This document shows positions 5,272-15,443 of a stretch of 64,000 nt of DNA, one piece after another. The notes beneath the pieces are model-generated. The model saw nothing but the letters and a program-made list of their open reading frames with translations, was not told where the DNA came from and did not search any database. Origin of the DNA: Acidimicrobiaceae bacterium (GTDB lineage: Bacteria > Actinomycetota > Acidimicrobiia > Acidimicrobiales > JAUTXP01); NCBI GenBank assembly GCA_030837965.1, contig JAUTXP010000062.1:1-64000 (forward strand). The letters are read 5' to 3'. Position 1 is the stretch's first letter; every line of letters starts with the position of its first letter. The position numbers were made by a program, and so were the translations under genes.

Positions 5272-6167
5272 GACAGGGATATTCCCACGGCGGCCAGATC
5301 GAGCCGGAGCACGGCCACCCAGACGGCCGTGGCGCCCGCGATGTGGATGCCCACCAGCAGGGGCGGGAGCCGGGTGAAGTACTGGGCGTAGCCGACGGCG
5401 GCCTGGGCCACGACCGCGGCCAGCAGGACCTCGGCCCGGCGCAGCACCTCCGACCCGACGCCCGAACGGGCCAGCGACACCAGCGTCAGCACGGTCATGA
5501 CCAGGAACAGCATCACGGCCACGCCGTGCAGCCGGGTCACCGCGTGCAGGGCGAAGGGCAGGCGCTCGGCCCGCTCGTCGCCGCCGTGCGGGCCGGACGA
5601 CGTGACGACGGTGCCGAGCACGATCACGACCGCCGCGGCCACGGTCAGCAGGCGGGTCATGCGGGCCTGGTCCCGGTCGACGCTGCCGGCGCGCACGGGC
5701 CTGTCGCTCTCGTCGGGCAGTGCGGCCCGGTCGTGCAGGACGACCGCGCACCACAACAACAGCATGGACACGCCGAAGTGGGCCATCACGAAGGGCGGGG
5801 CTAGGTCGAACAGGACCGTCAGCCCACCCAGCACGATCTGGCCCACGACTCCCGCGACCAGCCCGAGCGACAACCAGGTCAGGTCCCGCCGGCGGGGCGT
5901 GCGCCACAGCGACCCGAGCACGGCCAGCATCACCGCCACCGACACCAAGCCCGTGATGGTGCGGTTCACGAACTCGACCATGGCGTGGTACTCCAACGGC
6001 GCCACGACCCGCTGCTGCGAGCAGGTCGGCCAGTCCGGGCAGCCGAGCCCCGACCCGGTGAGGCGCACGGCCCCGCCCGTCACCACGATGAAGGCCAGGG
6101 CGCACAAGGCGAACAGCGTGACCCGGCGATAGCCGCGAGGGGTGAGCGAAAGCGGTCTGGAGGACAT
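5187..6167 (-). CDS. ctaA: heme A synthase CtaA
   Basis: About 326 residues with eight predicted membrane segments. Motifs include the first-loop [29 protein letters not shown] after it, [14 protein letters not shown], and [15 protein letters not shown] and [11 protein letters not shown] in the second half. CtaA oxidises heme O to heme A for the aa3-type oxidase encoded just downstream on the other strand. ATG 6167 lies inside a family-B hairpin repeat, so the repeat would encode the first residues (MSSR). A GTG 17 codons later, just before LFALCALAF, is an alternative that leaves the hairpin in the leader. Confidence 0.88.
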
Positions 6168-6199
6168 GGGGTGCGGTTTCGGCAGGCTATGTCCTCCAG
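6157..6199. repeat. 43-nt hairpin repeat, family B copy 1
   Basis: Arms CTGGAGGACAT and ATGTCCTCCAG enclose a loop with its own small stem. This copy lies between divergent ctaA and ctaB, so it is 3' of neither gene and cannot be a simple terminator. It contains the annotated ATG of ctaA. Confidence 0.75.
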
Positions 6200-6286
6200 T
6201 CCGGTTGGCTGGGGCGGCGGCGGGGGGCGGGTGCCTGCGGCTTGCTGGGGCGGACCCAGGCTTGGAGTGCGCCCGCCCGGCTGCCG

Positions 6287-6292
6287 TAATGT
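6287..6292 (+). promoter_or_regulatory. -10 box for leaderless ctaB transcript
   Basis: TAATGT lies 8 bp before GTG 6301. This is the TAnnnT-to-start spacing seen before many genes of the window, and fits transcription starting at or near the start codon. Confidence 0.45.
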
Positions 6293-6300
6293 GCACGCCC

Positions 6301-7200
6301 GTGCCCCTGGCCGCCCCCGCCGCGCCCCGTCTGCGCTCGCGCCTTGCGGCCTTCGTCGCGCTCACCAAGCCCCGGATCATCGAACTGCTGCTGGTGACGA
6401 CGGTCCCGACCATGTTCGTGGCCGCCCGGGGCGTGCCTTCGGGCTGGTTGGTCCTGGCCACCCTCGTGGGCGGCACTCTGGCCGCGGGCGGGGCCAACGC
6501 CATCAACATGTACGTCGACCGCGACATCGACCAGCTCATGGAGCGGACCAAGCACCGCCCGCTGGTCACTGGCGCGGTCACTCCCGCGGCCGCCCTCACC
6601 TTCGCCATCGCCCTCGAGGTCCTGGCCTTCGTCGAGCTGTGGGCCCTCGTCAACCTGCTCTCGGCCGTGCTGGCCGTCAGCGCCACGCTCTTCTACGTCT
6701 TCGTCTACACGCTGTGGCTCAAGCGCACGTCCCGCAACAACATCGTGATCGGCGGCGCGGCCGGCGCGGTACCCGTGCTGGTCGGCTGGGCCGCGGTGCG
6801 AGACGGGTTGAGCCTGGCCCCGCTCGTCCTCTTCGCCATCATCTTCGTGTGGACGCCGCCCCATTTCTGGGCCCTGGCCATCCGCTACAGGGACGACTAC
6901 GCGGCGGCCGACGTGCCCATGCTCCCGGCCGTCACCACGCTGGCCCGCACGGCTCGACAGATCGTCTTCTACACCGCCGCCCTCTGGGTCTGTTCCCTGT
7001 GGTTCGCGCAGGCAGGCGGCATGGGCCTCGTCTACCTGGTGGCCGCTGTACTGCTGGGCGGGGCCTTCCTCTTCAAGGCCGTGCAGCTTCAACGCGACGC
7101 CACCGCCCAACGGGCCATGCGCCTGTTCTCCTACTCCATCTCCTACGTGACGCTGCTGTTCGGCGCCATGGCCTTGGACCAAGTCGTCCACGTGAGATGA
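6301..7200 (+). CDS. ctaB: protoheme IX farnesyltransferase (heme O synthase)
   Basis: 299 residues from GTG 6301; ATG 6289 is an alternative that overlaps the -10-like box. The UbiA-type prenyltransferase signature is present: ALTKPRIIELLL, then NAINMYVDRDID with the Mg-binding Asp residues and ERTKHRPLVTG, and a second Asp-rich region at YRDDYAAADVPMLP. About nine membrane helices are predicted. It converts protoheme to heme O, the substrate of CtaA. It begins the plus-strand respiratory cluster and lies 54 bp upstream of the Cu-B-less subunit I gene. Confidence 0.92.
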   Translation: MPLAAPAAPRLRSRLAAFVALTKPRIIELLLVTTVPTMFVAARGVPSGWLVLATLVGGTLAAGGANAINMYVDRDIDQLMERTKHRPLVTGAVTPAAALTFAIALEVLAFVELWALVNLLSAVLAVSATLFYVFVYTLWLKRTSRNNIVIGGAAGAVPVLVGWAAVRDGLSLAPLVLFAIIFVWTPPHFWALAIRYRDDYAAADVPMLPAVTTLARTARQIVFYTAALWVCSLWFAQAGGMGLVYLVAAVLLGGAFLFKAVQLQRDATAQRAMRLFSYSISYVTLLFGAMALDQVVHVR

Positions 7201-7254: not shown

Positions 7255-8922
7255 ATGACGCTCACCGAGACTCGCGCTGAGGACGACGCGCCGGGCGCAG
7301 CACCAGCCCCGAACGGGCTGAGCGCGCTCGACCGCAACTGGCTGACCACGGCCGACCACAAGCGCGTCGGGCTGCTCTACCTGTTCTTCTCGCTGATCTT
7401 CCTGCTCGTCGGCGGAGGCATCGGCGTGGCCATCAAGGCGGAACTGGCCGGCAGCGGCGTGCAGATCGTGGGCGACAATTTCAGCCGCCTGTTCTCCGAG
7501 CACGCGACCGTCTCCGTGCTGTTGTTCCTCGCCCCGGCGTGGGTCGGGCTGGGCTGTTTCGTGGTGCCCCTTCAGATCGGTGCGGCCCGGCTCGCCTTCC
7601 CGCGCGGCATGGCCTTCTCGCTCTGGCTGTACGTGTGCGGCGGCGGGCTCTTGATTCTGAGCTACATCATCGGCCCGCCCGGCGGCCCGGGCGCCAGGGG
7701 CTTGGGCCTCACCAGCGCGGCGGCCATGACCGCGCCCAAGGGCGGCGCCACCACGGCCACCGAGTTGTGGGTGGTCAGCCTCATGCTGTTGGCCGCCGCG
7801 TCGCTGCTGGCCGCGGCCAGCCTGGCCGTCACCGTCCTCAAGCTCCGAGTCGACGGGCTCACCATGCGCCGCCTGCCCATGTTCTCCACCGCCACGTTCG
7901 TAACCAGCGTGGGCATCCTCATGGCCACGCCCGTGTTCCTCGCGGGCTTGGCCCTCCTGTACGTCGACCAGCACTACGGCGGTCGCCTGTTCCTGCCGTC
8001 GACGGGCGGGTCGGCCACGGTGTGGCAGCACACGGTGTGGCTCTTCGGCAGGCCCGAGGTGTTCCTGCTCACCCTGCCCGCGCTCGGCGCCGCGGCCGAC
8101 ATCGTGGCCACCCATTCCCGCCGCGGCTTCCTCGACGACAGGCCCTTGCAGGCGGCCATCGCCTTGTTCGGCATCCTCGCCTTCGGCGCGTGGTGGCTGC
8201 CGCACAACGCGTCGAGCGCGTTGGTGCTGCCCAACCCGCCTGCCCTCAACGCCGTGCTCGGCCTGCCCGTCGCCATCGTCGTGCTGGTCTTGTTGGGCAC
8301 AGCGGCCAAGGGCAGGCTGCGCCCGCACGTGAGCCTTTTGTTCGTGGCCGGCTTCGTCCTGCTCCTGGCCTTCGGCGCGGCCAACGGGATCATCGCCGCC
8401 GTGGTAGGTGTGCACGGCCGGGCCTGGACCGCAGGCCACCTGCACGTGGTCGTGTTCGGCGCCCCCACCCTGCTGGTCGCCGGGGCCATCTACCACTGGG
8501 CCCCCAAGATGTTCGGCCGCCACCTGTCCGGGGCCGCGGGAGGCGCCGTGTTCCTGCTGTTGTTCGGCGGCTTCCTGCTGATGGGCTTGGGCGACTATCT
8601 GCTCGGCTACAACGGGGCGCCCGCCCACGTGGCCGACTTCGGCGGCGGGCACGACTGGACCACCTACAGCCAACTGGGCACGGTGGGCGCCGTGCTGCTG
8701 GCCTTGGGCGGGCTCGTGCTGCTGGGCGACCTGGTGCGGGCCGCGGCGGGGAAGGGCACGGGCCCGGCTGCGGGCGACGATCCGTACGAGGGCCTGACGT
8801 TGGAGTGGGCCGCGCCCTCGCCCCCGCCGCCGCACAACTTCGACTCGGTGCCGGAGGTGCGTTCGCCCTATCCGGTGCTCGACCTGCGTCCGCCCGCGGC
8901 CACCGCAGGAGGCGACCGATGA
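7255..8922 (+). CDS. heme-copper oxidase subunit I-like protein lacking Cu-B ligands
   Basis: 555 residues, about 12 membrane helices, full length for the family and intact. It aligns along its length with the canonical subunit I at 12303, including NWLTTADHKRVGLLY, the FVVPLQIGA loop and the LEWAAPSPPPPHNF tail. Low-spin heme ligand His83 and the His395/His397 pair are kept, so both heme sites can be ligated. The Cu-B/Tyr helix reads FGRPEVF instead of FGHPEVY (Arg266, Phe270), the HH ligand pair reads LPH (315-317), and the D-channel entrance Asp is Arg112. A normal oxygen-reducing centre therefore cannot form. The gene overlaps the subunit III-like gene by 4 bp. Confidence 0.85.
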   Translation: MTLTETRAEDDAPGAAPAPNGLSALDRNWLTTADHKRVGLLYLFFSLIFLLVGGGIGVAIKAELAGSGVQIVGDNFSRLFSEHATVSVLLFLAPAWVGLGCFVVPLQIGAARLAFPRGMAFSLWLYVCGGGLLILSYIIGPPGGPGARGLGLTSAAAMTAPKGGATTATELWVVSLMLLAAASLLAAASLAVTVLKLRVDGLTMRRLPMFSTATFVTSVGILMATPVFLAGLALLYVDQHYGGRLFLPSTGGSATVWQHTVWLFGRPEVFLLTLPALGAAADIVATHSRRGFLDDRPLQAAIALFGILAFGAWWLPHNASSALVLPNPPALNAVLGLPVAIVVLVLLGTAAKGRLRPHVSLLFVAGFVLLLAFGAANGIIAAVVGVHGRAWTAGHLHVVVFGAPTLLVAGAIYHWAPKMFGRHLSGAAGGAVFLLLFGGFLLMGLGDYLLGYNGAPAHVADFGGGHDWTTYSQLGTVGAVLLALGGLVLLGDLVRAAAGKGTGPAAGDDPYEGLTLEWAAPSPPPPHNFDSVPEVRSPYPVLDLRPPAATAGGDR

Positions 8923-9512
8923 CCGCCACCACCACGCCCATGGCCGCGCTGCCTTCGGCGGGCGGCGACCGGCCCCGCAACCTGTTGACCACCGGCGTGG
9001 CCTTGGGCTGCGCAGGGGCCACCATGTTCTTCGGCGCCCTGCTCGCCGCCTACGTCGAGCTGCGGGGCCACGTCCACCCGTGGCCGCCCAAGGGCGTGAA
9101 GCTCGACCTGTACCTGGGCAACCTGCTGGTCATCACCATGCTGCTCGCGTCGCTGGCCGTGCAGTGGGCCGTGTCTGCGGTCCTGCGCCGCGACCAGCGC
9201 CAGGCCTCGGCCGCATTCGCCATCACCGCCGGGTTCGGCCTGGCCTTTTTGAACCTGTTGTCCTACAGCGCGTCCCGGGCCGACTACGGCGCAGGGTCGA
9301 GCGCCTATGCCGTGATCGCGGCCACCCTGGCCCTGTCCGTCGGCATCGTGGTCGCCGTAGCCATCGGCTTCGTGATCCTCACCCTTTTGCGGGTGCGGGG
9401 CAGCCAGGTCACGGCCGACAATCCGGACCAGGCCCGGGCCGCAGCCTGGTTCTGGCACTACGCCACTCTCGCCTCGATCGTCGTCTGGTACGCGGTCGTC
9501 GTCCGGAAGTAG
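8919..9512 (+). CDS. cytochrome oxidase subunit III-like membrane protein
   Basis: 197 residues and about five membrane helices. Start ATG 8919 overlaps the preceding stop (ATGA). The first helix (TGVALGCAGATMFFGALLAAYVELRG) and the last, with AAAWFWHYATLASIVVWY, match the heme-copper oxidase subunit III fold, where a W-H-(F/Y) near the C-terminus is typical. It is shorter and more divergent than CtaE at 14432. The coupling suggests it is the obligate partner of the Cu-B-less subunit I-like protein rather than of the canonical oxidase. Confidence 0.78.
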   Translation: MTATTTPMAALPSAGGDRPRNLLTTGVALGCAGATMFFGALLAAYVELRGHVHPWPPKGVKLDLYLGNLLVITMLLASLAVQWAVSAVLRRDQRQASAAFAITAGFGLAFLNLLSYSASRADYGAGSSAYAVIAATLALSVGIVVAVAIGFVILTLLRVRGSQVTADNPDQARAAAWFWHYATLASIVVWYAVVVRK

Positions 9513-9520
9513 GAGTCCGA

Positions 9521-10525
9521 GTGTTCAGTTACGCCACCAAGGTGCTGATGGCCCTGTGCGGGTCGGCGCTGGTTGGGGCCGCGGTGTTCTACGCCGCGGT
9601 CGGCGGCCGGGCGGGGGCTGTGCTCATGCTGTTCCTCTCCCTCGCCGCTCTGCTTGCCATGCTCACCGTGATCGCCGCGGGCGTTCGCGACATCGCCCCG
9701 TTCGTCCCGGCCGACGCGCCGCCGCCGGAGCCCAGGGCGTCCACGCCGGGCGCGCCCGCCACCGGCTCGGGATGGCCCTTGTTCTCGGCCGCGGCGGTGA
9801 CCCTGCTGGCGGTGGGCGCGGCCACCGAGAGCGTGGTCCTCATCTTCGGCCTCATCGCCGTCGGCCTGGGTGCGCTGGGCTGGTTCTCCAAGGCCTGGTC
9901 GGACCATCCCACGTGGACGCCGCGGGTCAGCCATCGCATCACCGACCGGTTCGTCGCCCCCGTCGGCCTGCCCGTGGGCGGGTTCCTCCTGGCCGCCCTC
10001 ATCGCCGTCAGCTTCTCGCGCATCCTGCTGGCGTCCTCCGAGAAGGTGGCCCCCCTCGTTGCCCTGGTTGGCGCCGTGCTCGTGCTGGGCGCGTGCGCGT
10101 GGGTGGCGAGCAGGCCCCGGCTGGCGTCGTCCGCCCTCATCGCCCTGTCTGCACTGGCCGGCGTGTCGCTGGTGGGTGCGGGCATCGCCGGGGCCACGCA
10201 GGGCGAGCGCCCCTTCGAAAAGCACGAGAAGGTCGAGCCCGCGGAGATCACGGCCAAGGGCACCAACTTCCTCGAAAAGCAGGTACAGGTCCCGTCCACC
10301 GGCGACGTGACCATCCGCTTCACCAACGACGACGCGGGCACCTACCACAACGTGGCCGTCTACAAGGGCGACGGGGCCGAGGCCGAGGTCGTCTTCAACG
10401 GCGAAGGGTTCCCCGGTATCCGCAGGAAGACGTACGCCTTCAAGGCCCCGGCCGCGGGCACCTATCAGTTCCGCTGCGACTTCCACGCCAACATGGTCGG
10501 GACGCTCATCGTCGGCGGGAGTTGA
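9521..10525 (+). CDS. polytopic membrane protein with C-terminal cupredoxin domain
   Basis: 334 residues from GTG 9521; AGGAG overlaps the previous stop. The first 230 residues hold about seven hydrophobic helices. The last 90 are a plastocyanin-like cupredoxin with type I copper ligands visible: His276 (TYHNVAVY), Cys319, His322 and Met325 (RCDFHANM). The two-cysteine Cu-A motif of subunit II is absent. It replaces a conventional subunit II in this module and probably carries electrons outside the membrane to or from the heme protein. The following thioredoxin-like gene overlaps it by 4 bp. Confidence 0.8.
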   Translation: MFSYATKVLMALCGSALVGAAVFYAAVGGRAGAVLMLFLSLAALLAMLTVIAAGVRDIAPFVPADAPPPEPRASTPGAPATGSGWPLFSAAAVTLLAVGAATESVVLIFGLIAVGLGALGWFSKAWSDHPTWTPRVSHRITDRFVAPVGLPVGGFLLAALIAVSFSRILLASSEKVAPLVALVGAVLVLGACAWVASRPRLASSALIALSALAGVSLVGAGIAGATQGERPFEKHEKVEPAEITAKGTNFLEKQVQVPSTGDVTIRFTNDDAGTYHNVAVYKGDGAEAEVVFNGEGFPGIRRKTYAFKAPAAGTYQFRCDFHANMVGTLIVGGS

Positions 10526-11136
10526 TCCCGACGGACGCGCCCACCCCCAGGCCCCGTCGCACGGCGCTGTTGGCCCTGGTGCCGGTGGCCGTGCTGGCCG
10601 TGCTCGTGGCCGTGTTGGTGGGCACCGCCCGCACGGACGCCTCGTCGGCGTCCTCGGCGTCCTCGGCGTCCTCGGCGTCCTCGGGTGCGGCCACGGCCGG
10701 AGCCCGCACGCCCACCCTTCCCATCAGCGCGGCGCCCGCCTTCACCTTGGCCGACGTGCGCGACCCGGCTCGCACGGTCGCCTTCGACGGCCACCCGACC
10801 CGGCCGACGGTCATCAACTTCTTCGGGGCCTGGTGCCCGCCGTGCCGGGCCGAGATGCCGCTGCTGGCCGAGGCGGCCCGCACCCACACCGGCATCGACT
10901 TCATCGGGGTGGACGTGCAGGACGTACGGTCCGACGCGCTCGCCCTCATCCAGCAGTCGGGCATGGGGTATGCCGCGGGCGCCGACCCCGACCGCGACGT
11001 GGTGCGGGGGTATCGGCTGCGGGGCTTCCCCACCACCGTGTTCGTGGCTCCCGGCGGCCGAGTGGCGGCCACCCACGGGGGCCAGCTCTTCAAGTCTGAC
11101 CTGGGCCGCCTGCTCGACGAACTGGAGGCGGCGTGA
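10522..11136 (+). CDS. membrane-anchored TlpA/ResA-like thioredoxin
   Basis: 204 residues from TTG 10522, overlapping the preceding stop (TTGA). One N-terminal membrane anchor is followed by a Ser/Ala linker encoded by five tandem 9-bp units (near 10640-10685). The thioredoxin fold has active site NFFGAWCPPCRAEMP and cis-Pro region LRGFPTTVFV. Extracytoplasmic TlpA-like proteins keep cysteines reduced for copper or heme insertion. Translational coupling suggests service to the neighbouring cupredoxin, and possibly to CtaC downstream. Confidence 0.85.
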   Translation: MIPTDAPTPRPRRTALLALVPVAVLAVLVAVLVGTARTDASSASSASSASSASSGAATAGARTPTLPISAAPAFTLADVRDPARTVAFDGHPTRPTVINFFGAWCPPCRAEMPLLAEAARTHTGIDFIGVDVQDVRSDALALIQQSGMGYAAGADPDRDVVRGYRLRGFPTTVFVAPGGRVAATHGGQLFKSDLGRLLDELEAA

Positions 11137-11233: not shown

Positions 11234-12274
11234 GTGACATCGCGTAGCTCGCGTCCTACACGAGGCCGTCGCCTCACCACTGCCGCCATGGCCACGCTCG
11301 TGGCCGTGCTGCTGGGCGCGTGCGGCAAGACGACGATGCCCCAGGACGCCCTGGACCCGCAGGGGCCGGTGGCCCGCAAGCTCGACCACCTGATCTCGCC
11401 CGTGTTCATCGTGGCGGGCGTGTTCTTCGTGCTCGTCCAGTTCCTGACCCTGTTCTTCGCCGTGCGCTACCGGCGGCGGTCGGAGGACGAGGCCCCCGTG
11501 CAGGTGCACGGCAACGCCCGGCTCGAACTGGCATGGACGATCGTCCCCGCCGTCATCCTGTTCGCCGTCGCCGTCGGCACCCTCACCGTCATTGCCGACA
11601 TCAACCGTCCGGCCAAGGGCGCGGACGTGGTGCACGTCGACGTCATCGGCCACCAGTGGTGGTGGGAGTTCCACTACCCGACCGAGGGCGTGACGACGGC
11701 CAACGAGCTGCACGTACCCGTGGGCCGGTTGGTGGCCATCACGCTGACCTCAAAAGACGTGATCCACTCCTTCTGGCCGCCCAAGCTGGCGGGCAAGATC
11801 GACGCCGTGCCCGGCCGCCTCAACCACATGTCGCTCCAAGCCGACAAGCCGGGCACCTATTACGGCCAGTGCGCCGAGTTCTGCGGCATGGCCCATGCCG
11901 ACATGCGCCTGCGGGTGGTGGCCCACAGCGCGGGCGACTGGGCCAAGTGGGTGGCGGCCAACACGGCAACGCCCCGATTGCCCATCGAGTCGGTCGAGGC
12001 CAAGGCCGCGGCGGGCTCCACCCTGTTCCGACAGAAGGGCTGCGCGAGCTGCCACACCGTCGAGGGCTACTCCAAGGGGACGGTGGGCCCGAACCTAAGC
12101 CACCTCCAGCAGCGCAAGGTGTTCGCAGGCGCCATCTTCGAGATGAACGACGAGAACCTGCGCAAGTGGCTGCGCAACCCGCCCAAGGAGAAGCCGGGCT
12201 CGATCATGCCGAACCTGAACCTCTCCGAAGACGAGATCACCAACCTCATCGCCTACCTCGACACGCTCAAGTGA
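11234..12274 (+). CDS. ctaC: cytochrome c oxidase subunit II with fused cytochrome c (caa3 type)
   Basis: 346 residues from GTG 11234. The signal peptide has a lipobox-like LLGAC. Two membrane helices are followed by the cupredoxin domain with GHQWWWEFHYP and the Cu-A motif CAEFCGMAHADM. A C-terminal monoheme cytochrome c follows (CASCH, with Met in GSIMPNL). This caa3 architecture receives electrons from quinol:cytochrome c reductase or soluble cytochrome c and passes them through Cu-A to heme a of CtaD. It lies 97 bp after the thioredoxin-like gene and begins the canonical oxidase operon. Confidence 0.95.
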   Translation: MTSRSSRPTRGRRLTTAAMATLVAVLLGACGKTTMPQDALDPQGPVARKLDHLISPVFIVAGVFFVLVQFLTLFFAVRYRRRSEDEAPVQVHGNARLELAWTIVPAVILFAVAVGTLTVIADINRPAKGADVVHVDVIGHQWWWEFHYPTEGVTTANELHVPVGRLVAITLTSKDVIHSFWPPKLAGKIDAVPGRLNHMSLQADKPGTYYGQCAEFCGMAHADMRLRVVAHSAGDWAKWVAANTATPRLPIESVEAKAAAGSTLFRQKGCASCHTVEGYSKGTVGPNLSHLQQRKVFAGAIFEMNDENLRKWLRNPPKEKPGSIMPNLNLSEDEITNLIAYLDTLK

Positions 12275-12302: not shown

Positions 12303-14432
12303 ATGACCGACGTATCCCTCGCCCCCGCCGCTTCTTCGCAGGCCGCGGCCGAGCCGCGCCTGCTTCGTCGTCCGCTGCACCCGACCGGCATCTGGTCCTG
12401 GCTCACCACCATCGACCACAAGCGCATCGGCATCCTCTACGGCGGCACGTCGCTTCTGTTCTTCCTCGCGGGCGGCATCGAGGCCCTGCTCATCCGCCTC
12501 CAGCTCGCCCGGCCCAACGGCACCGTCATCCCTGCCGGGCTGTTCAACGAGCTGTTCACCATGCACGGCACGACGATGATCTTCCTGGTCGTCATGCCGC
12601 TGTCGGCCGCCTTCTTCAACTACTTGGTGCCCTTGCAGATCGGGGCCAGGGACGTGGCCTTCCCCCGGCTGAACGCGTTCAGCTACTGGACGTTCCTGTG
12701 CGGTGGCCTGTTCCTGTACTCCAGCTTCCTGCTGGGCGGGGCGCCCAACGGCGGCTGGTTCGGCTACGCGCCCAACACCACGGTGACCTTCAACCCGGGC
12801 CACAACATCGACTTCTGGGTCTTCGGCCTGCAGATCCTGGGCATCGCGTCGACCGTCGGCGCCGTCAACTTCGTCACCACCATCCTGAACCTGCGGGCTC
12901 CGGGCATGACCTTGTTCCGCATGCCCATCTTCACGTGGATGTCGCTGGTGGCGAACTTCCTGTTGCTGTTCGCCATGCCCATCATCACCGTGGCCTTGTT
13001 CTTGTTGATGTTCGACCGCAACTTCGGGTCCCACTTCTTCGACCCGACCGCGGGCGGCAACGCCATCTTGTGGCAGCACCTGTTCTGGCTCTTCGGCCAT
13101 CCCGAGGTGTACATCCTCATCCTCCCGGCCATGGGCATGGTCTCCGAGATCATCCCTGTCTTCGCCCGGAAGCCCTTGTTCGGCTACCGGGTCATGGTGA
13201 TCTCGGGGATCGCCATCGGGTTCATGGGCTGGGGCGTGTGGGTGCACCACATGTTCTCGACCGGACTCGGACCCGTGGCCGTGTCCGCCTTCTCCCTGTC
13301 CACCATGTTCATCGCCGTGCCCACCGGCGTGAAGATCTTCAACTGGCTCGGCACGCTGCACGGCGGGTCGCTCAAGTTCTCGACGCCCATGCTGTTCGCG
13401 GTCGGGTTCGTGGCCATGTTCACCATCGGCGGCCTGTCCGGCGTGACCCACGCGGTGTCGCCTCACGACCGTCAGCAGACCGACACGTACTACGTGGTGG
13501 CCCACTTCCACTACGTGCTGTTCGGCGGCTCGCTGTTCGGGATCATGGGCGGCATCTACTACTGGTGGCCCAAGTTCTTCGGCCGCTTCTTGAACGACCG
13601 CCTGGGCAAGTTCCACTTCTGGCTCTGGTTCATCGGGTTCAACATGACCTTCGGACCCATGCACTTGTTGGGCCTCCAGGGCATGCCCCGGCGGATCTAT
13701 CGGTACCCGACCGGGATGGGCTGGGACTTCTGGAACATGGTGTCGACCATCGGCGCCTTCACCATCGCCACGTCCGTGCTGATCTTCATCATCAACGTGT
13801 ACCGCAGCACCCGTCACCCCGTGTACGCCTCGTCGGACCCGTGGGACGGCCGGTCGCTGGAGTGGTCCATCCCTTCGCCGCCGCCCCACTACAACTTCGC
13901 CGAGGTCCCTGTGGTCACGCACGAGGACGACTACTGGCACCGCAAGTACACCGAGGACGCCAGCGGCAGGCTGGTGCGCCTGGAAGGCACGGCGCCCATC
14001 CCCGCGGTGATCACGGCCGAGGAGCGGGCCAATGGGAATGGGCACGGCAACGGGCACGGCCACGACGACCCGCCGGGCATCCATCTGCCTTCGCCTTCGT
14101 ACTTCCCGCTGGTGGCCTCGACCGGCTTGCCGGTGATGGCCTACGGCATGGTCTACGGACGGGACGCGGGCCAGAACTACGTGATCACCGCCATCGGCGC
14201 CCTCATCGTGCTGGTGGGTCTGTTCGCCTGGGCCATGGAGCCGTCGGTGGAGCCCGAGGAGCACGTCGAGTCCGGTGATGCTCCGGGCGGACCCGAGGCG
14301 CTGACCGGCGGGGGCGACGGACAGCCCGCGTTGGTCGGCGCGGGCGCGGGTGTCGACGCGGAAGACGACGGCGAGCGCATCCCACGCGACCTGCTCCGAG
14401 GCGGACAGACCGAGTCCGAGGAGGAGAGGTAA
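12303..14432 (+). CDS. ctaD: cytochrome c oxidase subunit I with C-terminal extension
   Basis: 709 residues. All catalytic residues are present: His88 (heme a), FGHPEVY with Cu-B His266 and cross-linked Tyr270, His315/His316, and His401 (heme a3)/His403 (heme a). Asp117 of the D channel and a Lys in PTGVKIFNW are also kept. After the usual LEWSIPSPPPHYNF tail there is an extra region with a His/Gly-rich linker and two more helices (ASTGLPVMAYGMVYG; VITAIGALIVLVGLFAWAME). This resembles a subunit IV-like domain fused to subunit I. It reduces oxygen and pumps protons, and is the internal control for the Cu-B-less paralogue upstream. Confidence 0.96.
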   Translation: MTDVSLAPAASSQAAAEPRLLRRPLHPTGIWSWLTTIDHKRIGILYGGTSLLFFLAGGIEALLIRLQLARPNGTVIPAGLFNELFTMHGTTMIFLVVMPLSAAFFNYLVPLQIGARDVAFPRLNAFSYWTFLCGGLFLYSSFLLGGAPNGGWFGYAPNTTVTFNPGHNIDFWVFGLQILGIASTVGAVNFVTTILNLRAPGMTLFRMPIFTWMSLVANFLLLFAMPIITVALFLLMFDRNFGSHFFDPTAGGNAILWQHLFWLFGHPEVYILILPAMGMVSEIIPVFARKPLFGYRVMVISGIAIGFMGWGVWVHHMFSTGLGPVAVSAFSLSTMFIAVPTGVKIFNWLGTLHGGSLKFSTPMLFAVGFVAMFTIGGLSGVTHAVSPHDRQQTDTYYVVAHFHYVLFGGSLFGIMGGIYYWWPKFFGRFLNDRLGKFHFWLWFIGFNMTFGPMHLLGLQGMPRRIYRYPTGMGWDFWNMVSTIGAFTIATSVLIFIINVYRSTRHPVYASSDPWDGRSLEWSIPSPPPHYNFAEVPVVTHEDDYWHRKYTEDASGRLVRLEGTAPIPAVITAEERANGNGHGNGHGHDDPPGIHLPSPSYFPLVASTGLPVMAYGMVYGRDAGQNYVITAIGALIVLVGLFAWAMEPSVEPEEHVESGDAPGGPEALTGGGDGQPALVGAGAGVDAEDDGERIPRDLLRGGQTESEEER

Positions 14433-15079
14433 TGGCGACCGACGCCCCCGCCGTGCAGGCCGAGCCCGCGCTCACCGCGCCCGAGGCCCACGCCCACGTC
14501 ACCAACACGGGCCTGTCCAACGAGAAGCTGGCCATGTGGGCCTTCCTCGGATCTGAGTGCCTGTTGTTCGGCGCCTTGATCTCGACCTACTTCCTCTACC
14601 GGGGCCGCAGCCCCGTGGGCCCGTATCCCAAGGACATCTACGACATCCCCTACACGTCGGTCAGCTCGTTCGTGCTGTTGATGAGCTCGCTGACCATGGT
14701 GCTGGCCTTGGCCGCTATCCAGCGGGGCGACTCGCGCCGGCTGCGGGTGTGGCTGTTGGCCACCGCGTTGCTGGGGTCGAGCTTCATCGCAGGCCAGGTC
14801 TATGAGTTCACGACGTTCATCCGCGAGGGCCTCACGCTCAAGACCAACCTGTTCGGGAGCAGCTTTTTCGTCCTCACCGGTTTCCACGGCGTGCACGTCA
14901 CCGTCGGCATCGTCATGCTGCTGTCGTTGTGGACGCTGTCGATGCGGGGCAAGCTCCCGCAGGAACGGGCCGAGGTCGTGGAGATCGCGGGTTTGTACTG
15001 GCACTTCGTGGACGTGGTGTGGATCGTGATCTTCACCGTCGTGTACCTGATCCCGTCACCGACCCCGCACGGAGGCTGA
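14432..15079 (+). CDS. ctaE: cytochrome c oxidase subunit III
   Basis: 215 residues. ATG 14432 shares a base with the stop of ctaD (TAATG). It has five membrane helices and the family motifs AFLGSECLLFGALIS, SSFFVLTGFHGVHV and YWHFVDVVWIVIF (the WHFVD signature). It stabilises subunit I of the caa3 oxidase. Confidence 0.95.
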   Translation: MATDAPAVQAEPALTAPEAHAHVTNTGLSNEKLAMWAFLGSECLLFGALISTYFLYRGRSPVGPYPKDIYDIPYTSVSSFVLLMSSLTMVLALAAIQRGDSRRLRVWLLATALLGSSFIAGQVYEFTTFIREGLTLKTNLFGSSFFVLTGFHGVHVTVGIVMLLSLWTLSMRGKLPQERAEVVEIAGLYWHFVDVVWIVIFTVVYLIPSPTPHGG

Positions 15080-15080
15080 C

Positions 15081-15443
15081 GTGAGCACCGAGGCCATCGA
15101 GGAATCCGAGGCCCATCGCCGGCCCCATGCCGAGGGCGGCGAGCACGGCGCCCATCCGACCGAGGCGACGTACATCAAGATCGCCATGATCCTGGCCGCC
15201 GTCACCGGGATCGAGGTGGCGCTGTACTACACGTCGTTCAACCAGCAGGCCACCAACGCCATGCTGATCGCGCTGGCGGGCATCAAGTTCGTGATGGTCG
15301 CCGCCTACTTCATGCACTTGAAGTTCGACAACAAGGTGCTGCGCAGGCTGTTCACCACCGGCTTCATCCTGGCCTCGCTCTGCTACGTGGCCTACCTGTG
15401 GACGTTGGGCGTGTTCAAGCTCTCGTTCCTGCCGTGGGCCTGA
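15081..15443 (+). CDS. cytochrome c oxidase subunit IV-like protein
   Basis: 120 residues from GTG 15081, two bases after the ctaE stop. A His-rich polar N-terminus is followed by three membrane helices with the prokaryotic COX4/CyoD pattern (IKFVMVAAYFMHLKFD). It is an accessory subunit of the caa3 oxidase. CtaD already carries a subunit IV-like C-terminal region, so the complex may have two such elements. Confidence 0.88.
   Translation: MSTEAIEESEAHRRPHAEGGEHGAHPTEATYIKIAMILAAVTGIEVALYYTSFNQQATNAMLIALAGIKFVMVAAYFMHLKFDNKVLRRLFTTGFILASLCYVAYLWTLGVFKLSFLPWA

Follow-up and report, generated by a model that had tools for sequence, protein, structure and literature searches.

A block of three genes encoding the proteins P1, P2 and P3 sits between ctaB and an intact caa3 oxidase operon (ctaCDEFG) in the window, by which we mean the whole 64,000-nucleotide stretch of Acidimicrobiaceae DNA that was analyzed, and on balance we favor reading it as an oxidase-core paralogue (subunits I, III and IV) that is catalytically dead and is retained across Acidimicrobiales to accompany the neighboring caa3 oxidase in a non-catalytic capacity. 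Most of the caa3-bearing Acidimicrobiales also carry a dead subunit I twin in the same cluster. Heme-copper oxidases are among the best-studied membrane enzymes, and subunit I is usually judged by its Cu-B site. Here a subunit I paralogue stripped of Cu-B has been kept beside a working oxidase, along with subunits III and IV of its own, through much of the history of the order. A description of the module was not found in the open-access literature that was searched, and one may exist in subscription journals.

Organization of the block and its neighbors

The genes of the block and the flanking oxidase cluster are as follows.

6142..7200, + strand: ctaB, heme O synthase (gene order, identity to relatives)
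7255..8922, + strand: P1, Cu-B-less COX1-like subunit, 555 aa (PF00115, alignments, AF2, Foldseek)
8919..9512, + strand: P2, subunit III-like membrane protein, 197 aa (PF00510 COX3, E=5.8e-8)
9521..10525, + strand: P3, subunit IV-like/three-TM/cupredoxin fusion (hhalign, Pfam, AF2, Foldseek)
10522..11136, + strand: P4, TlpA/ResA-like thioredoxin with WCPPC, 204 aa (Pfam, NCBIfam)
11234..12274, + strand: ctaC, canonical subunit II (Cu-A motif, CAEFCGMAHADM; fused cytochrome c, CASCH)
12303..14432, + strand: ctaD, intact catalytic caa3 subunit I (TIGR02891 above cut-off; ligands complete)
14432..15079, + strand: ctaE, subunit III (Pfam)
15081..15443, + strand: small caa3 subunit IV, COX4_pro type (PF03626, E=1.2e-12)

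All of the coordinates and residues given for the 7255–11136 module in the original prediction were recovered. The upstream boundary of the block is ctaB, which is 67–83% identical to the gene at the same position in relatives, and its true start may lie within the open reading frame at 6142..7200. The P1 frame is open over 555 aa and matches PF00115 (E=4.6e-70), and the AF2 model (pTM 0.80) has the 12-TM fold of subunit I (Foldseek match to a solved oxidase subunit I, E=7.5e-23; TM ~0.77 to 2gsm). P1 and the caa3 CtaD at 12303 are the only COX1-family proteins of the genome. Alignment with this CtaD and with solved actinobacterial oxidases places H83, H395 and H397 of P1 at the canonical heme ligands, all three of them kept as had been claimed; H83 and H397 correspond to the low-spin pair (a predicted bis-His site) and H395 to the high-spin proximal His. 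The segment FGRPEVF aligns with the canonical FGHPEVY, with R266 in place of the Cu-B His and F in place of the cross-linked Tyr; this replacement and the loss of the D-channel Asp had both been noted correctly, and the K-channel Thr/Lys and the MPRR (heme-propionate) arginines are absent as well. At least one of the HH ligands had been thought replaced, in a segment reading LPH, and here the loss stands and extends to both, while the His of LPH is not a retained ligand. In the gap-free alignment of WWLPHN with WVHHMF it is L and P that replace the HH pair and the His falls one residue past it, so that all three Cu-B His are lost (R, L and P instead). A Cu-B His at a shifted position was looked for, and the aligned P1 proteins share no His around this site. 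The Cu-B triad is kept in none of 63 P1 sequences, and these alignments support the conclusion, drawn from the window copy alone in the original prediction, that the usual reduction of O2 is beyond P1.

The start of P2 at 8919 has a 4-bp overlap with the end of P1, and its product lacks the conserved Glu (GSE) of CtaE when aligned with the window CtaE. P3 starts at a GTG codon (9521) and has three parts: an actinobacterial subunit IV-like part (approximately residues 1–130), three TM helices with an invariant Ser-Arg, and a cupredoxin (Cupredoxin_1, E=7.2e-9). Residues 13–125 match the subunit IV-like proteins of the class by hhalign (97.8%, E=8.6e-13); the comparison family comes from aa3 operons of this class, in which such a protein is encoded after subunit III, and one of its members reaches PF12270 weakly (E=8e-5, below the cut-off). 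Because P3 begins with this part, P1-P2-P3 repeats the subunit order I-III-IV. The earlier description of the module was right as to the subunit III-like protein and the cupredoxin, and missed both the subunit IV-like start of P3 and the tracking of the caa3 oxidase described below. The type I copper site was also correctly seen, with predicted ligands His276, Cys319, His322 and Met325 (numbering from GTG 9521) and an amicyanin-like motif spacing (CxxHxxM), on a cupredoxin fold that AF2 models with pLDDT ~85, the TM part being modeled poorly; the best Foldseek matches are auracyanin (E=5.6e-8) and amicyanin (1.3e-6). Conversion of a subunit II into the C-terminal half of P3 was considered and rejected, as the cupredoxin alone aligns with CtaC and the TM helices do not. 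There is no Cu-A subunit II among P1–P4, and the downstream ctaC goes with the intact ctaD.

P4 starts with TTG (10522), has a 4-bp overlap with P3, matches AhpC-TSA (E=1.5e-13) and, judging from gene orders, is found mainly in the copper-bearing clade. In the window copy a run of near-identical SSA repeats separates the TM helix from the thioredoxin domain, forming a low-complexity linker that is absent from aligned relatives.

In the caa3 neighbor the Cu-A, heme c and Cu-B motifs are kept at the loci of relatives wherever the gene is complete. The window CtaD (12303–14432) is extended at its C-terminus by a segment similar (hhalign 95%) to a portion of the actinobacterial subunit IV-like proteins. 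The sole strong QcrB-like match of the genome (G000:C83:235-618) is located at the end of a contig and contains one in-frame stop, and the bc complex of the source organism is incomplete in the assembly.

Distribution, origin and selection

Among the 395 genomes searched from the class, three relatives of P1 with 55–57% identity were identified, each ~5 kb upstream of ctaD and in the same gene order as the window, with RPE[VI]Y at the Cu-B segment and A-G for HH. Since these relatives have replacements in common with P1 and share its gene order, the replacements cannot be put down to chance or to sequencing error. Three further records (L055–L057) came from a scan of named genomes, all from Actinomycetota bins and one of them Acidimicrobiaceae; two other candidates from the profile scan, in an Anaerolineae (L058) and a Flavobacteriales (L059), are ordinary HPEVY oxidases and were rejected. 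No module was found in viral contigs.

A P3 profile has matches in 268 of 397 genomes of the order; the cupredoxin is covered by ~30 of the matches listed, and most others end before it. We inspected 40 loci and then 20 more, placing the module in ~60 Acidimicrobiales loci, with the order ctaB-P1-P2-P3-ctaC-ctaD at every one save where a contig or the stretch ends; P1 is always between ctaB and P2-P3 at each locus uncut by a contig end. Conservation in other Acidimicrobiia, one of the checks proposed with the original prediction, is supported, and the two conditions that were to refute that prediction, shifted Cu-B ligands and a unique decaying copy, both came out negative. The module is present in a genome taken as Ilumatobacter coccineum YM16-304 (PMC3910706) and absent from one taken as Acidimicrobium ferrooxidans (PMC3035218). 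Of 23 P3-less genomes chosen for a check, 21 also lack a caa3-type CtaD, and another (G406) has both the module and a caa3 CtaD, interrupted by a contig end. There is one exception to the linkage, which counts against the partner reading: G405 (L188, G405:C84), 99% complete, has ctaB-P1-P2 and a short P3, and a caa3 CtaD was not found in it. P1–P3 tracks the caa3 oxidase as a matter of gene linkage, which is known from synteny, and synteny does not show contact. Counts of PF00115 matches overestimate the number of terminal oxidases in Acidimicrobiales genomes.

In a maximum-likelihood tree 27 P1 proteins group together (SH-aLRT 100), and the long stem of this clade joins the actinobacterial aa3-type CtaD and not the caa3 CtaD, with a joining branch (87%) that is not strong. 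P1 probably has a single origin from an actinobacterial aa3-type CtaD, and a tandem duplication of the adjacent ctaD was rejected on account of this nearer relationship.

In close pairs (82–84% identity) P1 has a dN/dS of 0.17–0.22 by the Nei-Gojobori method. For a heme-less pair the P1 value is 0.36, with 0.22–0.23 for P2 and P3 of the same pair; P2 and P3 values of some other pairs are inflated, as open frames and not trimmed genes were compared. The block is under purifying selection even where the heme ligands have been lost. The rate of evolution of P1 exceeds that of ctaD, a difference that slow decay could also explain.

Graded loss of cofactor sites and possible roles

The proton channels are gone in all P1 proteins, and the cross-linked Tyr in many, including that of the window, with some relatives retaining it. 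The heme ligands are lost to different extents according to the state of P3. Where P3 bears copper, 25 of 27 members keep the low-spin pair and 10 of 27 the high-spin ligand, whereas in copper-less members the figures are 10 of 36 and 3 of 36. H83 and H397 are the only invariant His across nine aligned P1 proteins, and the high-spin position is variable across the family (H, Q, N, A, T and others). As read from these alignments, the low-spin pair is constrained in copper-bearing members only. In a large sister lineage the genes persist although copper is gone and, for the most part, so are the low-spin ligands. The association of heme with copper rests on approximately two changes of the copper state on the CtaD tree and may not be independent, which weighs against the favored reading. 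In three members on the Ilumatobacter side (L092, L101 and L149) the C-terminal domain of P3 looks like a cupredoxin without copper ligands, which suggests that loss of copper preceded loss of the domain.

Since the block persists in many lineages without any redox ligand, its common role would be structural or otherwise non-catalytic support, in dimerization, stability or assembly of the caa3 oxidase or as a supercomplex scaffold. The clade of the window would probably also hold a single low-spin heme together with a single type I copper, by which electrons would be relayed or buffered on their way between carriers in the periplasm and the caa3 oxidase. With the oxygen-reduction parts lost and, in this lineage, one heme and a blue copper seemingly kept, the dead twin probably supports the real oxidase rather than a chemistry of its own. 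We put forward more tentatively the possibility of an oxidase heteromer, in which a catalytic caa3 half is paired with a dead P1-P2-P3 half that would serve as a blue-copper/low-spin-heme port in some lineages and as a scaffold in others; if so, a pseudo-oxidase subunit would be a regular component of such a respiratory complex. P1 would be a natural respiratory pseudoenzyme whose cofactor sites have been lost stepwise across living species, and these graded losses let the non-catalytic roles of the oxidase scaffold be probed.

A redox relay may instead be the primary function, with P1–P3 a CuA-free electron-transfer complex (type I copper and low-spin heme) providing, for example, a quinol/cytochrome route into the caa3 oxidase, and with the copper- and heme-less lineages repurposed later. 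The retention of the low-spin ligands in nearly all copper-bearing members, which keep neither Cu-B nor, consistently, the high-spin ligand, fits this explanation, as do the likeness of the cupredoxin to auracyanin and amicyanin and the placement of the copper-bearing clades, which make up two of the main three branches of P1 and include early-branching members of the third. However, a large clade keeps the genes under selection after losing both centers, no quinone site is demonstrable, and the TM-cupredoxin part occurs elsewhere without P1, and we regard a primary relay as doubtful. The original prediction that blue copper is used instead of Cu-A does not follow, because the cupredoxin half predates P1, or at least exists without it, and lies beside ordinary caa3 oxidases elsewhere.

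The location of the block between ctaB and ctaC, the TlpA-like P4, and the TM-cupredoxin gene found between ctaG and ctaB/SCO in other classes would each fit an assembly or maturation factor, in which the block is a membrane platform that delivers heme A and copper to the caa3 oxidase together with CtaB, CtaG, SCO and TlpA. The ordinary caa3 clusters of other classes do without P1 and P2, however, and a 12-TM core with subunits III and IV is large for a chaperone, making this explanation unlikely.

The case for a gas sensor (NO, O2 or H2S) or an alternative reductase, acting on a high-spin heme without Cu-B, draws on H395 in the window copy and on Arg266, which is on the Cu-B side in most members of its clade. 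The high-spin ligand is gone, however, in 17 of 27 copper-bearing members, some with the same operon and 48–54% identity (AQVH in L055 and GNVH in L056), and such an activity is most improbable. For the same reason the two-heme complex originally envisaged does not hold for the family, in which the high-spin ligand is labile and the low-spin pair alone is constrained, in copper-bearing members. NO/O2 sensing at a five-coordinate heme is accordingly no function of the family. A functionless decaying duplicate would account for the lost catalytic residues and the faster evolution relative to ctaD, and is practically excluded, for the window copy as a unique decaying gene as well as for the family, by synteny with a conserved three-gene order, intact frames in dozens of species, dN/dS of ~0.2 with no relaxed selection in the pseudogene test, and a single old origin.

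Comparison with known systems

The actinobacterial aa3 CtaD (NF050116; M. smegmatis III2-IV2 supercomplex, PDB 6adq) is homologous to P1 over its full length (E=1.9e-128), and the two have in common the 12-TM fold and, in the window copy, the low-spin ligands. P1 differs in having lost Cu-B, the cross-linked Tyr, the D- and K-channels and the propionate arginines and in having no Cu-A subunit II of its own, and it scores 323.9 bits against the NF050116 cut-off of 880. The neighboring caa3 oxidase (ctaC-ctaD-ctaE) shares with P1–P3 an operon and the subunit order I, III, IV, but its CtaD is catalytically intact, ~34–36% identical to P1 and not the nearest relative of P1 in the tree. NO reductases of the NorB type have the superfamily fold in common with P1, and the ordinary Cu-B is absent from both. 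NO reductases need a second metal held by His, whereas P1 has no His at the three metal positions and none conserved nearby; of the profiles applied, the Pfam COX1 and CtaD models fit P1 best.

The copper-bearing part of P3 has relatives of its own. Matches in other classes and orders, identified with a profile of the P3 membrane part, are separate proteins of ~220–360 aa with three TM helices and one or two cupredoxin domains, and their genes adjoin ctaG in ordinary caa3 clusters without P1 or P2. Many caa3 clusters of Actinomycetota encode such an uncharacterized protein right after ctaG (L170–L187), with a conserved Ser-Arg motif and, in some, altered copper ligands or no cupredoxin. The stand-alone proteins of other Actinomycetota are homologous to P3 from approximately residue 122 and many have type I ligands, but unlike P3 they have no subunit IV-like fusion and no P1 or P2 beside them. 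Given these TM-cupredoxin genes beside ctaG elsewhere, the copper part of P3 probably accompanied the caa3 oxidase before it was joined to the dead core.
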